Source: Candidatus Moraniibacteriota bacterium (GTDB taxonomy: Bacteria > Patescibacteriota > Minisyncoccia > Moranbacterales > UBA1568). Taken from it: a stretch of 61,056 nt of DNA. The stretch is taken from the NCBI GenBank assembly GCA_028711705.1, contig JAQTRS010000006.1, positions 1 to 61,056 on the forward strand, read 5' to 3'. How positions within the stretch are numbered: the stretch's first letter is position 1; every line of letters begins with the position of its first letter. Made by a program: the position numbers and the translations under genes. The notes beneath the pieces are model-generated. The model did not search any database. It worked only from the letters and a program-made list of their open reading frames with translations, and was not told the DNA's origin. Below, piece by piece: positions 3,059 through 61,056 of the stretch.

Positions 3059-3544
3059 ATGTCTTATATCGTTATCGCTCATAATATCCGCAGCGCACAC
3101 AATGTTGGATCCTTGTTCCGGACAGCTGACGGGACGGGAGTGGACAAGATCTTCCTGACCGGCTATACGCCGATGCCCGCCACGAAAGAGACTATCTATC
3201 TGACGCGGGCGCACAAAGACCTTGCCAAGACCGCTTTGGGCGCTGAAAAAAATATCGTCTGGGAACACAGGGAGGATGTTTTGGCATTGCTTAAGGCGCT
3301 TAAAAAGGATGGCTATCAAATCATCGCTTTGGAACAATCCGAAAAGAGCGTGGATTATCGGGCGTATCGACCGTCGAAAAAGATCGCGCTCATCGCGGGC
3401 AATGAGGTTAGGGGAGTGGATGCTGATATTTTGGATCAGTGCGACGCGATTCTGGAAATTCCTATGCGAGGACAGAAGAATTCACTCAATGTTTCCGTCG
3501 CTTTCGGGATTGCTGCTTTCGAAATAAGGAGTAAAATGGAGTGA
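3059..3544 (+). CDS. SpoU/TrmH-family RNA 2'-O-methyltransferase
   Basis: A 161-residue SPOUT methyltransferase lacking any N-terminal RNA-binding extension. It shows the three family motifs: HNIRSAHNVGSLFRTADG near the N-terminus, IALIAGNEVRGVD, and IPMRGQKNSLNVSVAFGIAAFE forming the trefoil-knot S-adenosylmethionine site. It methylates a ribose 2'-OH in tRNA or rRNA; which nucleotide is not predictable. The start at 3059 (MSYIVIAHN) is chosen because the frame upstream overlaps the glycosidase gene and has no family similarity. A palindromic element begins right after the stop. Confidence 0.88.
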   Translation: MSYIVIAHNIRSAHNVGSLFRTADGTGVDKIFLTGYTPMPATKETIYLTRAHKDLAKTALGAEKNIVWEHREDVLALLKALKKDGYQIIALEQSEKSVDYRAYRPSKKIALIAGNEVRGVDADILDQCDAILEIPMRGQKNSLNVSVAFGIAAFEIRSKME

Positions 3545-3546
3545 GT

Positions 3547-3670
3547 GGTATCATGTGGTCGTAGTGCGGATAAATAAGTTTTCATGACCATGGTGTACTC
3601 ACGGAGGTCATGAAAACTTATTTGTTCGTACTGCTTCGTCCTTTTCCCAACCATGCTCTCAGTATTTTCC
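3547..3670. repeat. 124-bp palindromic element, type A, loop orientation 1
   Basis: Two 26-bp inverted arms (3564-3589 and 3606-3631, three mismatches) enclose a 16-base loop (3590-3605). The same 124-bp unit occurs at 17278-17401 with the outer flanks in the same orientation but the 16-base loop reverse-complemented. The element lies between the SpoU and HAD genes and brings in-frame codons upstream of the HAD start. No ORF of its own is credible. Confidence 0.85.
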
Positions 3671-5103: not shown

Positions 5104-5646
5104 ATGCCTGAGGAAATGAAACAAGAGGATGCTGCCGAGGAATCAAGTCAGGGGAGCGGGGAAAAGGAGACACCGAGCAATGACGCCTCAAAGGATATGC
5201 GCGGCATGATCGATCAGTTCGAAGCGACGCTTGATGAATATATGGTCAAGAAAGCGCCGTTCCACATCCCTGCCGGAGGGAAGGATTTTTTGGTAAAGGT
5301 AGCGCCGTATTTTATCATCGTGTTCGCTATTCTGACGCTGCCGGTCATTGTTGCCGGTCTCGGACTGACAGCCTTACTGACCCCGTTTGCTGCTATGGGA
5401 GGCTACTATAGTTTCGGAGCGCTCGGATTGCTTTCGGTCGTGTTTGCGGCCGCGGCCCTGATCGTAGAACTGATGGCGGTCAAGGGGCTTTTCAAACAAA
5501 CTCATGCGTCATGGCGTCTTTTGTATTATGCTTCCCTTATCGGCTTCGCGGGCAATATCGTATCGCTCAATATCGTTTCGGGTATCATCGGATCCATCAT
5601 TGGTTGGTATATCCTCTTCCAGGTGAAAGAACGCTACAAGAATTAA
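5104..5646 (+). CDS. Uncharacterised multi-span membrane protein
   Basis: 180 residues: an acidic, low-complexity cytoplasmic N-terminus (about residues 1-60, rich in Glu, Ser and Lys) followed by about four hydrophobic segments (FIIVFAILTLPVIVAGLGL, a Gly/Ala-rich pair, and SLNIVSGIIGSIIGWYILF). It ends with KERYKN. I do not recognise the family; the layout resembles small conserved membrane proteins common in Patescibacteria. A strong promoter for an RNA gene begins ten bases after its stop. Confidence 0.65.
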   Translation: MPEEMKQEDAAEESSQGSGEKETPSNDASKDMRGMIDQFEATLDEYMVKKAPFHIPAGGKDFLVKVAPYFIIVFAILTLPVIVAGLGLTALLTPFAAMGGYYSFGALGLLSVVFAAAALIVELMAVKGLFKQTHASWRLLYYASLIGFAGNIVSLNIVSGIIGSIIGWYILFQVKERYKN

Positions 5647-5654
5647 GAAATATA

Positions 5655-5682
5655 TTGACAAACTTTTTCCACGTTATACAAT
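5655..5682 (+). promoter_or_regulatory. Near-consensus sigma70 promoter of the structured RNA
   Basis: TTGACA (5655-5660), a 16-base spacer and TACAAT (5677-5682). Transcription is expected to begin near 5689-5690, directly before the folded region. No credible protein start follows within 340 bases. Confidence 0.75.
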
Positions 5683-5689
5683 AGAGATA

Positions 5690-5983
5690 GTTCTTGGGCA
5701 AGGGGTGACTTGCTAGAGCATGAGGCTCTCAAGCGAGAACGAAAAAGAGTCGTGCAGAGTCGAAGTTCGTTAGAAACACAAATGTGTCAGCTTCAGCCAC
5801 ATCCGGACCATGCAAGAAATGGTCGCGCATTGTTCGGGAAAACGTTGGGCATACCGTACACATGCCTTACAACTGAAGTCGCAAACGTTGGACGCAACGT
5901 GGGTGAGAAACAGACTTGTTGAAATGTATCATGCTGATTCCAAGCGTTTGGAATACAGAGTTCGTTTCATTCAGTCTGTTTTT
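5690..5983 (+). ncRNA. Structured non-coding RNA, family not recognised
   Basis: The region has a strong promoter but no credible ORF, and it folds by eye into a multi-branched RNA. GTTCT/AGAAC encloses CTTGC/GCGAG and AGAGC-atgag-GCTCT (about 5690-5740). CTTCAG/CTGAAG (about 5790-5878) encloses two hairpins, GACCA/TGGTC and GTTG-GGCAT/ATGCC-CAAC. Then come ACGTTG-gacg-CAACGT (5885-5900) and a closing pair AAACAGACT/AGTCTGTTT running into a T-tract near 5983. A hairpin ATTCCAA-gcg-TTTGGAAT lies between the last two strands. I looked for signatures of RNase P RNA, tmRNA, SRP RNA and 6S RNA and found none. Ends are approximate. Confidence 0.65.
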
Positions 5984-6011
5984 TTGTCCGCATTTTATTT
6001 CGTGCTACAAT
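5984..6011 (+). promoter_or_regulatory. Promoter of the HtrA-like protease gene
   Basis: TTGTCC (5984-5989), a 16-base spacer and TACAAT (6006-6011). The -35 box lies in the T-rich end of the preceding RNA gene. The 5' UTR would be about 16 bases. Confidence 0.5.
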
Positions 6012-6033: not shown

Positions 6034-7473
6034 ATGAAACGGATACCCCTCTTTTTTGTCCTTGCGTTTTGCGTCATGATCGCGCTGTTTTCTGTCGGTA
6101 TATCCGCGGTGGCAGCTCAATTTCAGGTGCCGTTGATGCGGGAGGATATCGTTGCGCTCACCAAGCCGTCCGTGGTACGTATCGCGCAGCACGTGAAGGG
6201 GACAGCCACTATTCCGGCTTTGACGATCAATCTCAAGGATTGGTCGGTGAGCGTCGATACGAGCCGCCCATCAAAAACCATTCCTGTCGATGAGACGCTC
6301 AGTGGGAGCGGCTTTATCGTTTCTTCGGACGGCTATATCGTCACCAATTCCCATGTCGTTTCGCTTTCGACGATCAAGATCGACGTGATGACCCAGGCCG
6401 TATTGCCGGCCATGTACGACAGTGCGCTGGCATTGAATGAGGAAGAGGCGAATAAGATTTTCCAGGACGAGAGCGCGGCATTCGAATTCAGCAAGAAGGT
6501 ATTCGACTACGCTTCGGTTCACAGCACCTTCGATGTCGTGCAGGATATCGTCGTGCTCGATCCTTCCTCGCAAAAGGAACGATTCGACGATCTGATGCAG
6601 GAGGGATTTCCTGTGCAGGTAGTGAGCGTTAATGACCGTTTTTACGATGACGATAAGGATGTTGCGCTCATTAAGATTGATCAAGAGGGCTTGCCAACAA
6701 TCCCATTCGGGAACTCCCAGAGCCTGAATGTCGGCAAACAGATATTCATCTTCGGTTTCCCGGCCACGGCGGAATTCAATCAGCGCAATCCGCTCGAGTC
6801 GACCTTTACGCAGGGCGTCGTGAGCGCGATCAAGGATGCTGAGAAAAAAGATTTCAAGGTATTCCAGACCGATGCCAAGGTGTCGGATGGATCAAGCGGC
6901 GGACCGCTTGTGGATGATAATGGCAATGTTTTGGGCATCGTGACGTTCCAGACGGGACAATTCCAAAAAACATCAGGCGATAATTTCGCTTTTGCCATAC
7001 CTATCGAGATGGCATTGAAAATGATCGCTGATAGCGGCGTGGCCATCAGCGCTTCGCCGTATCAGGAAGAATTCAAGCAAGGGCTGGGACTTCTCCGCGC
7101 CAAACATTGCCGGGACGCGCTCTCTTTGTTCAAGCTTTCGGGAGTGGGCAATGAGGCTTTTGATGTCGATAGGTATACGGCGCCGTACAGTGCGTATTGT
7201 GAACTGTTGATAGTGCAGGGGCAGTCGATCGATACTCTGCGCAGCAAGATCAAGGACTTTGCCGGGCTTATCTCGCCATCGATGTGGATGGCGATCGGTA
7301 TCGTGGCGCTTTTTGGGCTGTCGCTGTGCTTCGTGATCTGGTGGCTTATCCGCGAGGTTAATAAGGAGGAGAGGGAAATTCAGTCACTGGAGAAACGTCT
7401 GCATGAGGAAGAGGAACAGTTATGTAGGGATCATAAGATGATCGAGAAACTCTCGCAAAGGAAGAAGGATTAA
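6034..7473 (+). CDS. HtrA/DegP-like trypsin-fold serine protease with C-terminal membrane anchor
   Basis: The 479-residue protein has an N-terminal hydrophobic signal or anchor (residues 5-28) and a trypsin-fold domain. The catalytic triad is His107 (VTNSHVV), Asp209 (DKDVALIKID) and Ser288 (SDGSSGGPL). An unusual insertion of about 95 residues, partly acidic and helical, separates His from Asp. There is no PDZ domain; the C-terminus has a second membrane segment (about residues 415-440) and a charged coiled coil (REVNKEEREIQSLEKRL). It likely acts outside the membrane in protein quality control. It ends convergently with the P-type ATPase gene, overlapping it by four bases (TTAA). Confidence 0.88.
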   Translation: MKRIPLFFVLAFCVMIALFSVGISAVAAQFQVPLMREDIVALTKPSVVRIAQHVKGTATIPALTINLKDWSVSVDTSRPSKTIPVDETLSGSGFIVSSDGYIVTNSHVVSLSTIKIDVMTQAVLPAMYDSALALNEEEANKIFQDESAAFEFSKKVFDYASVHSTFDVVQDIVVLDPSSQKERFDDLMQEGFPVQVVSVNDRFYDDDKDVALIKIDQEGLPTIPFGNSQSLNVGKQIFIFGFPATAEFNQRNPLESTFTQGVVSAIKDAEKKDFKVFQTDAKVSDGSSGGPLVDDNGNVLGIVTFQTGQFQKTSGDNFAFAIPIEMALKMIADSGVAISASPYQEEFKQGLGLLRAKHCRDALSLFKLSGVGNEAFDVDRYTAPYSAYCELLIVQGQSIDTLRSKIKDFAGLISPSMWMAIGIVALFGLSLCFVIWWLIREVNKEEREIQSLEKRLHEEEEQLCRDHKMIEKLSQRKKD

Positions 7474-10607: not shown

Positions 10608-10710
10608 GAATTATCGTATATCTTATTCTTCGGAGTACGGATATTTTTCTGCTGAAAAATTCCTCGTGCCCGCCTCGCCAGCCTCCTCAAAATAAGATAT
10701 ACGATAATTC
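10608..10710. repeat. Hairpin element with conserved core, copy 1
   Basis: Perfect 20-bp arms (10608-10627 and 10691-10710), then a 4-base mismatch and a further GGAG/CTCC pairing, enclose a core that begins GTACGGATATTTTT and is close to the cores at 33311, 50635 and 54163. The 3' part of this core is shorter than in the other copies. The element lies between the ABC ATPase and permease genes of one transcription unit. Confidence 0.85.
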
Positions 10711-16485: not shown

Positions 16486-17265
16486 ATGAACAACACCAAC
16501 ACACCATTCATTTCTCTAGCATTCATATCGTTCGCGCTTGCGAGCATTTTTTCGTGCACTCCTGCGGCATCCGCTTCGGAAATAACTCCGAAGAAGGTGG
16601 TAGAGCTCGTCAACCAAGATAGGGCCAAAGAGGGTCTTGCTCCGCTCCGAGTGAGTGAGGAGCTGACGAAGGCTGCGCAGGCGAAGGCGGATGATATGGC
16701 CAAAGAGGATTATTTCGCGCATACTTCGCCCAAAGGACGTACTCCTTGGTATTGGATCCAGCAGAGCGAATATGATTACCGTTTCGCCGGTGAGAATTTG
16801 GCTATCCATTTTACGGATGCCGAGAGTCAGGAACAGGCATGGATGATCAGCGTGAAGCATAAGGAGAATATATTAAGCCCGAAGTATCAGGATATCGGTG
16901 TAGCTGTTGATCATACGGTCCAGAACGGACAGTCAACGATTATCGTCGTGCAGATGTTCGGACTTCCTTCCGGCGTTACACCTCCGGTGGCAGTGGCCGG
17001 CGCAGGGACCGAAACGCAGGAACCTGTCACGAGCAATGCCCTTGTCTCATCGATCGGTTCTTCGCAGCATGATCCGGCCAAAGCCATGCAGGTATCCGGA
17101 CAGGTAGGGGCGGCGCATCCTGGAACCTATGCCTGGTTTTGGTGGGTCAGTCTCTTTGCCATCACTCTTGTGATGACTTCCGGATTGTCGGTCATAGTGA
17201 CGGAGCGCAGGATTCTCTATTATAGATGGTTTCGTAAGGATGATATCTTCCACTATAGAGCGTAA
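16486..17265 (+). CDS. CAP/SCP-domain protein with C-terminal membrane anchor
   Basis: 259 residues: signal peptide (about residues 1-27), a CAP (SCP/PR-1) domain of the short bacterial type, then a linker and one membrane helix near the C-terminus (FWWVSLFAITLVMTSGLSVI). CAP motifs include VVELVNQDRAKEGLAPL, DYFAHTSPKGRTPWYWIQ and AGENLAI, with the conserved His and Glu residues. Bacterial CAP proteins are extracellular; some bind lipids or act on wall polymers, but activity here is not predictable. The last codons lie in a 20-bp sequence that is repeated after the adjacent palindromic element. Confidence 0.88.
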   Translation: MNNTNTPFISLAFISFALASIFSCTPAASASEITPKKVVELVNQDRAKEGLAPLRVSEELTKAAQAKADDMAKEDYFAHTSPKGRTPWYWIQQSEYDYRFAGENLAIHFTDAESQEQAWMISVKHKENILSPKYQDIGVAVDHTVQNGQSTIIVVQMFGLPSGVTPPVAVAGAGTETQEPVTSNALVSSIGSSQHDPAKAMQVSGQVGAAHPGTYAWFWWVSLFAITLVMTSGLSVIVTERRILYYRWFRKDDIFHYRA

Positions 17266-17417
17266 AGTAGAGCGAATGGTATCATGTGGTCGTAGTACAG
17301 ATAAATAAGTTTTCAAGACCTCCGTGAGTACACCACGGTCATGAAAACTTATTTATCTGTACTGTTTCATCTTTTCCCCAACTATGATTTCGGTATTTTC
17401 CACTATAGAGCGTAAAG
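17248..17417. repeat. 20-bp direct repeat flanking the type-A palindrome
   Basis: The 20-mer that starts TTCCACTATAG and ends GCGTAAAG occurs at 17248-17267, covering the end of the CAP gene and its stop, and again at 17398-17417, just past the palindromic element. This looks like a target-site duplication or a template-switch scar left when the element arrived. Confidence 0.8.
17278..17401. repeat. 124-bp palindromic element, type A, loop orientation 2
   Basis: Arms at 17295-17320 and 17337-17362 (one mismatch in 26) enclose a 16-base loop (17321-17336). Against the copy at 3547-3670, the outer flanks and arms align in the same direction, while the loop matches only as its reverse complement (15 of 16 bases). 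Confidence 0.87.
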
Positions 17418-33283: not shown

Positions 33284-33395
33284 GAATTATGGAATAATAT
33301 CTTTTATGGAGGCTTGCGAGCCTGGCGAGGCGAGTACGAGGAATTTTTTAGCAAAAAAATATCCGTACTCCATAAAAGATATTATTCCATAATTC
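33284..33395. repeat. Hairpin element with conserved core, copy 2 (core reversed)
   Basis: Perfect 27-bp arms (33284-33310, 33369-33395) enclose a 58-base core (33311-33368) that matches the cores of copies 1, 3 and 4 as its reverse complement. It lies between the pth start and the LCP gene stop. The outer seven bases GAATTAT and inner TTATGGA of the arms are shared with copy 3; the middle differs. Confidence 0.9.
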
Positions 33396-33412
33396 GTACC
33401 TTGCTACAGTTT

Positions 33413-50605: not shown

Positions 50606-50722
50606 TGAATTATGAGAGAAACCATTTTTATGGAGTACGGATATTTTTCTGCTGAAAAATTCCTCGTGCTCGCGCCGCCGCGACTCGCAAGCCTCCATAA
50701 AAATGGTTTCTCTCATAATTCA
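50606..50722. repeat. Hairpin element with conserved core, copy 3
   Basis: Perfect 29-bp arms (50606-50634, 50694-50722) enclose a 59-base core (50635-50693) that starts GTACGGATATTTTT and ends CTCGCAAGCC. It lies inside the zinc transporter unit between znuC and znuB, where a 29-bp hairpin could lower znuB expression or stabilise the upstream mRNA. Confidence 0.92.
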
Positions 50723-54148: not shown

Positions 54149-54252
54149 TATTCGTTTTCAGGGTACGGATATTTTTCTGCTGAAAAATTCCTCGTACTCG
54201 CGCCGCCGCGCTCGCAAGCCCCTGAAAACGAATATCAGCTATCGGTTACAGA
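54131..54252. repeat. Hairpin element with conserved core, copy 4
   Basis: Perfect 32-bp arms (54131-54162, 54221-54252) enclose a 58-base core (54163-54220). The first 18 bases of the left arm are the last five codons and stop of comEC, and the right arm is an inverted copy of them. The arms share no sequence with copies 1-3, but the core is nearly identical to that of copy 3. Confidence 0.93.

Positions 54253-59522: not shown

Positions 59523-61056
<1,534 letters not shown>

Follow-up and report, generated by a model that had tools for sequence, protein, structure and literature searches.

A candidate small noncoding RNA gene in the 3' untranslated region of a membrane-protein gene of a Moraniibacteriota genome

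Results

The locus and its genomic setting

The stretch under study lies in the window, i.e., the whole piece of DNA that was analysed (61,056 nt), which is contig 1 of a Candidatus Moraniibacteriota genome of 1.16 Mb (21 contigs, 99.5% complete). It sits between a membrane-protein gene and a protease gene, all on the plus strand (Table 1), and is present as a single copy in the genome. For the searches, the genome was handled as 68 stretches plus the window (labels such as C17 and L049 mark parts of this genome), and the relatives available comprised 27 other genomes of the family and 131 genomes of the order, this genome included; no second genome of the genus was encountered among those searched.

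Table 1. Annotated and predicted features of the locus (window coordinates)
Feature	Position	Strand	Remarks
Upstream gene, 180-aa membrane protein	5104..5646	+	No Pfam or NCBIfam match
Sigma-70-type promoter, TTGACA-16 nt-TACAAT	5655..5682	+	Transcription start expected near 5689
Predicted noncoding transcript	5689..5985	+	~297 nt; bounds predicted from promoter and terminator-like hairpin
5' domain, three-way junction	5690..5740	+	Segment 5688-5741: z -3.14, p 0.0075
Small hairpin, ACAC-AAAT-GTGT	5776..5787	+	Predicted fold
Central domain, closing stem CTTCAG (5791-5796)/CTGAAG (5873-5878), two hairpins inside	5790..5879	+	
Hairpin, ACGTTG-GACG-CAACGT	5885..5900	+	Predicted fold
Terminator-like long hairpin, stem AAACAGACT (5908-5916)/AGTCTGTTT (5973-5981), helices nested inside	5907..5985	+	
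Separate protease promoter, TTGTCC-16-TACAAT, TG ahead of -10 box	5984..6011	+	Similar box before most orthologues
Downstream gene, trypsin-like (HtrA/Deg-related) serine protease with membrane segments	6034..7473	+	Outside the RNA gene

The stop codon of the membrane-protein gene (5644-5646) ends 8 nt before the -35 box of the candidate RNA, and no terminator lies within these 8 nt. Downstream of the membrane-protein orthologues lie other genes, in Moranbacteria often pyruvate kinase, and the named records that encode its relatives belong in good part to Candidatus Moranbacteria or Moraniibacteriota. Relatives that are ~50% identical were seen in Moranbacteria and also in records labelled Chlorobiaceae or Chlorobium (labels as given), where the next gene is a different one; this distribution suggests that the membrane-protein gene was transferred between Patescibacteria and green sulfur bacteria.

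Several repeats were observed in the same genome. A near-perfect palindromic element of ~110 bp with 26-bp arms (ATTATGGAATAATATCTTTTATGGAG) lies at window positions 33286-33400; further copies occupy 10608-10685, 50626-50702 and 54163-54220 of the window, and the genome holds more than 10 of them (~80-90% identical), one copy lying ~40 bp away from the gene for RNase P RNA; we read it as a MITE-like or REP-like family. A second palindromic family, with arms AGTACAGATAAATAAGTTTTCA, is found at 17262-17401 and 3531-3670, with partial copies on other contigs; a 20-bp direct repeat (TTCCACTATAGAGCGTAAAG, at 17248-17267 and 17398-17417) brackets its 17.3-kb copy. The 16S rRNA gene is cut by the end of the window (59523-61056) and its 3' end opens contig 4 (L019:1-156), while the 3' end of the 23S gene and the 5S gene lie on contig 19 (L034), i.e., assembly breaks split the rRNA operon.

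A near-consensus promoter precedes a stretch with little coding potential

An earlier, sequence-only reading of this DNA had proposed a strongly expressed, structured RNA driven by a near-consensus promoter, i.e., ~290 noncoding bases forming seven or more helices and belonging to no recognised family. The promoter is indeed there, matching the consensus at 11 of 12 positions. Searching the 1.16-Mb genome with the same strict pattern returned 39 sites, this one among them, of which 28 (72%) are intergenic; several of the others are located just upstream of tRNA genes. Given that the sites are mostly intergenic and that several lie a short way before tRNA genes, the pattern appears to be meaningful in this genome. 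Strong expression of the candidate RNA would be a prediction from the promoter only. Other promoters of the genome that are followed by long leaders have ordinary genes and tRNAs downstream, never copies of the candidate RNA. A strict promoter on the minus strand of L051 (near local position 1116, reading downwards) is likewise followed by ~120 noncoding bases, with a long AAAACAGACTCATC..GATGGGTCTGTTTTT hairpin ahead of a putative secreted-protein gene; this unit is a further candidate small RNA or leader.

Regarding coding potential, no frame contained within the stretch is longer than 70 aa (5710-5922), and this one scores -0.16 per codon in codon log-likelihood, below the 1st percentile of 70-codon stretches taken from real genes (-0.13), with both neighbouring genes scoring above +0.2 on the same measure. 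The frame matches no Pfam or NCBIfam family, so that the claim that the stretch holds no credible open reading frame is upheld. We considered the possibility that this frame is nonetheless a small protein gene, or that the transcript is a dual-function RNA: its 70 codons are open, and a purine-rich, ribosome-binding-like site (AAGGGGTGA) lies immediately 5' of its TTG start codon. Yet the spacing between this site and the TTG is very short, no homologue of the frame was found and its codon usage falls outside that of nearly all real genes, making such a product very unlikely.

The predicted fold draws mostly on a 3' hairpin

When compared to shuffled sequences, the 303-nt stretch folds better than expected (z -3.97, with 0 of 100 shuffles as good), and it does so in a strand-specific manner (z -4.49 on the plus strand versus -1.44 on the minus strand). 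The 3' hairpin by itself (5906-5983) reaches z -5.61 (0 of 400 shuffles), while the transcript devoid of this hairpin (218 nt, 5688-5905) yields z -1.78 and p 0.045. Most of the fold signal thus comes from the 3' terminator-like hairpin, and the excess of structure outside it is marginal.

Within the remaining transcript, the 5' domain is predicted to comprise an outer stem (5690-5696/5734-5740) and two hairpins (5697-5714 and 5715-5729), and in the full-length fold a different pairing, AACGAA/TTCGTT, competes with it. The central-domain segment (5787-5880) scores z -2.52 (p 0.005) as a segment picked after the fold had been seen; the z values of all individual segments are optimistic for this reason, having been selected after folding. 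To place these values, we turn to a survey of intergenic folds that covered 73 tiles, roughly a fifth of the planned set and taken from its beginning, some of which are rRNA or palindromic repeats. In 14 tiles, among them several such rRNAs or repeats, the best z was no higher than -4; the two tiles over the gap that holds the candidate RNA scored -1.7 and -3.05. Since z values around -4 are no rarity among the intergenic tiles of this genome, we regard the fold as suggestive, not remarkable.

The description of the stretch as a richly structured RNA hence survives in part: the fold is better than that of shuffles (z of about -4 to -4.5), but what stands out is mostly the terminator hairpin (z -1.8 without it). 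Of two pairings that had been singled out as long-range, CTTCAG/CTGAAG is present as the closing stem of the central domain; AAACAGACT/AGTCTGTTT exists as well, though not as a long-range, tertiary-like contact but as the closing stem of the 3' hairpin.

The stretch matches no known RNA family

A search of the whole stretch against Rfam 15, at the gathering scores and at E values up to 10, gave only plainly chance matches, the best being a nematode snoRNA on the minus strand (20.4 bits, against a gathering score of 65). In agreement with the sequence-only reading, which had found no hallmarks of RNase P RNA, tmRNA, SRP RNA or 6S RNA, none of these models matched.

It had also been proposed that the RNA might be a very divergent member of a known family. 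A divergent copy of one of these four housekeeping RNAs would fit the size and the promoter, and neither a 6S nor an SRP RNA was found elsewhere in the genome. However, the RNase P RNA (C17:174955-175309, 136.9 bits, RF00010) and the tmRNA (in L049:794-1188, 112.5 bits, RF00023) of this genome are located elsewhere. SRP RNA (RF00169) was found in none of 57 genomes of the order (this one and 56 relatives), and a search of the same 57 genomes for the SRP54 GTPase domain (PF00448) returned weak P-loop fragments only, while recovering the domain in 14 of 14 controls; a motif search for Ffh/FtsY in this genome likewise gave no candidate. The loss of SRP in Parcubacteria was already published in 2015 (PMC4508563), and the missing SRP RNA and SRP54-family proteins agree with that loss and, in these data, extend it to the order. 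With neither the RNA nor its proteins found here or in the 56 relatives, we rejected this identity: the candidate is not a hidden SRP RNA, SRP having been lost together with Ffh/FtsY. As for 6S RNA (RF00013), neither the window nor any of 28 family genomes gave a match, and the candidate lacks the long 6S-type rod with its central bubble. The stretch was, moreover, not found in relatives (see below), and we consider a housekeeping identity extremely improbable.

No homologue is found in relatives

BLAST searches of 95 relatives and of the 131 order genomes retrieved no homologue of the candidate RNA. Within the family, at E values up to 10, short matches appeared, and those inspected look like chance hits to coding DNA. 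In the 131 order genomes, the two other matches with E below 0.01 likewise look coding. Across the searches, the borderline hits were matches of 35 and 19 nt, which when inspected look coding, and one of 47 nt to the AT-rich promoter stretch. Two single-sequence covariance models, R1 and R2, built on two competing 5' folds, recovered only the window's own copy from the 95 relatives and 28 family genomes; R1 also matches the window's own minus strand weakly, because the hairpin is near-palindromic. No match to the candidate RNA was found among plasmids and phages, nor to two exact 21-base probes among viral contigs. As single-sequence models are not very sensitive, rapid divergence is indistinguishable from recent origin.

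These results do not support the idea that the stretch encodes a conserved new RNA of Patescibacteria, no relative having been found either by BLAST in the 131 order genomes or with the two covariance models. Nor does the corresponding region downstream of the membrane protein hold a similar RNA in relatives, where other genes follow. The stretch could still belong to a new class of structured RNA (a ribozyme, a scaffold or a component of a ribonucleoprotein) that is restricted to the genus or was transferred from an unsampled source, in line with its ~297 nt, its multi-domain predicted fold, its lack of an Rfam family, its single copy and its strong promoter. Large structured RNA classes are usually revealed by their conservation, and nothing was found in the 131 order genomes, the plasmids, the phages or with the two exact viral probes; together with the marginal structure outside the terminator, this renders a new class improbable. 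A specific form of this idea, a genus-restricted, multi-domain RNA with a housekeeping-level promoter and homologues only in unsampled Moranbacteria, is slightly less probable again; if it held, the RNA could, e.g., take over the function of 6S RNA, for which the family gave no match. A new RNA class is at present not supported, and an interpretation as a new structured RNA family is not established.

The downstream protease carries its own promoter box

With the protease gene on the same strand, the terminator-like hairpin lying ~49 nt ahead of its start codon and a full-length fold in which the 5' region can instead pair with the T-run, the stretch could be read as a conditional leader (an attenuator or riboswitch), in which the terminator at 5907-5985 would be bypassed into the HtrA-like protease gene at 6034. 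Thirteen full-length orthologues of the protease, 33-45% identical over the aligned region, were found in other genomes of the family, and most of them have a similar box (TGCTACAAT, TACAAT or near variants) shortly 5' of the start codon, as does the window copy. A leader comparable to the candidate RNA was seen at none of the 13, and the stretch matches no riboswitch, T-box or leader of Rfam. Based on these upstream regions, we rejected the protease leader and hold it to be distinctly unlikely.

The terminator-like hairpin lies far from the upstream stop codon

The 3' hairpin ends in a run of seven T residues (5979-5985), and no other terminator candidate was seen downstream of the membrane-protein gene. 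It encloses ~56 nt, which is unusual in intrinsic terminators, and it is absent from the output of a terminator pattern scan limited to loops of 3-8. After the orthologues of the membrane-protein gene, compact terminators are located 17-64 nt past the stop codon in most of 26 loci, commonly with the stem AAAACAG..CTGTTTT. The window has no compact terminator after this gene; a similar stem, AAACAGACT..AGTCTGTTTTTTT, is found 262 nt past the stop codon, and the promoter and the candidate RNA occupy the interval between the two. Homology of this stem with the terminator stems of the orthologues is plausible but not proven, because stems of this type most often begin with ACA in this genome.

Discussion

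We propose that the 3' UTR of the membrane-protein gene holds a lineage-specific small noncoding RNA gene, which has a promoter to itself and shares the terminator of the membrane-protein gene; to this reading we assign a probability of roughly 55%. It draws on the promoter, the noncoding stretch, the terminator-like hairpin, the lack of a terminator ahead of the promoter and the absence of the stretch from relatives, and it is supported by the strand-specific folding (z -4.5 on the plus strand versus -1.4 on the minus strand). It is weakened by the missing homologues, by the z of -1.8 outside the terminator hairpin, by the ~56-nt enclosure of a hairpin that the pattern scan skipped and by a complementarity to translation starts that stays within the range of shuffles.

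According to this model, RNA polymerase carrying the housekeeping sigma factor would start near 5689, from a promoter 8 nt past the upstream stop codon, and transcription would end near 5985, where the long hairpin meets its T-run, giving an RNA of ~297 nt whose transcription and exact ends are predicted. The same hairpin would also terminate the membrane-protein mRNA. In the simplest picture, the 3' UTR of the membrane-protein gene is where the RNA gene either originated or was inserted; the product of the RNA gene would act in trans, by base pairing or protein binding, instead of being a by-product.

The main rival is precisely that the RNA is a by-product, i.e., that an expanded 3' UTR with a chance or newly gained promoter gives rise to a transcript that has no selected function. 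Conservation in none of the relatives tested and the weak structure outside the terminator would both be expected of such a transcript, as would the lack of an antisense target signal, the longest complement of the candidate RNA to translation starts being 11 nt, as compared to 10-15 nt in shuffled controls. At the same time, a near-consensus promoter, a strand-specific fold and a hairpin with a T-run are more orderly than random drift would produce, and the whole 1.16-Mb genome has as few as 39 strict promoter sites. On balance, we view a by-product as possible, though a good deal less probable than a small RNA gene.

If the RNA is transcribed, it would provide a concrete small-RNA candidate for a superphylum for which a literature search found no dedicated small-RNA study, and would illustrate how a small RNA can be gained in the interval that separates a gene from its ancestral terminator.

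Among noncoding transcripts, the TIGR arrays of Tas systems are known from Patescibacteria (PMC12045711), i.e., from the same superphylum. The stretch contains only weak, irregular repeats, with no regular dual repeats of the TIGR type, and no Nop-domain protein was recognised among the neighbours examined; we rejected a TIGR array, which would have regularly spaced dual repeats. A search of the genome for CRISPR-like arrays found none.

Like 5' leader attenuators and riboswitches, the candidate is a structured RNA that has a terminator ahead of a gene read in the same direction, but it differs in that this gene has its own promoter box and that its orthologues lack such a leader. With stand-alone intergenic small RNA genes it shares a promoter, a noncoding body and a terminator within an intergenic gap, whereas here neither a gap nor a terminator separates it from the upstream gene. 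The closest parallel is found in small RNAs whose own promoter lies at a gene's 3' end and which share the terminator of its mRNA, e.g., MicX of Vibrio (PMC9438474). Compared to these, the candidate is longer (~297 nt), is not conserved outside this genome and is described here from sequence alone, yet the arrangement is alike: a promoter near the end of the upstream gene, no terminator in between, and a final hairpin with a T-run that both transcripts could use.
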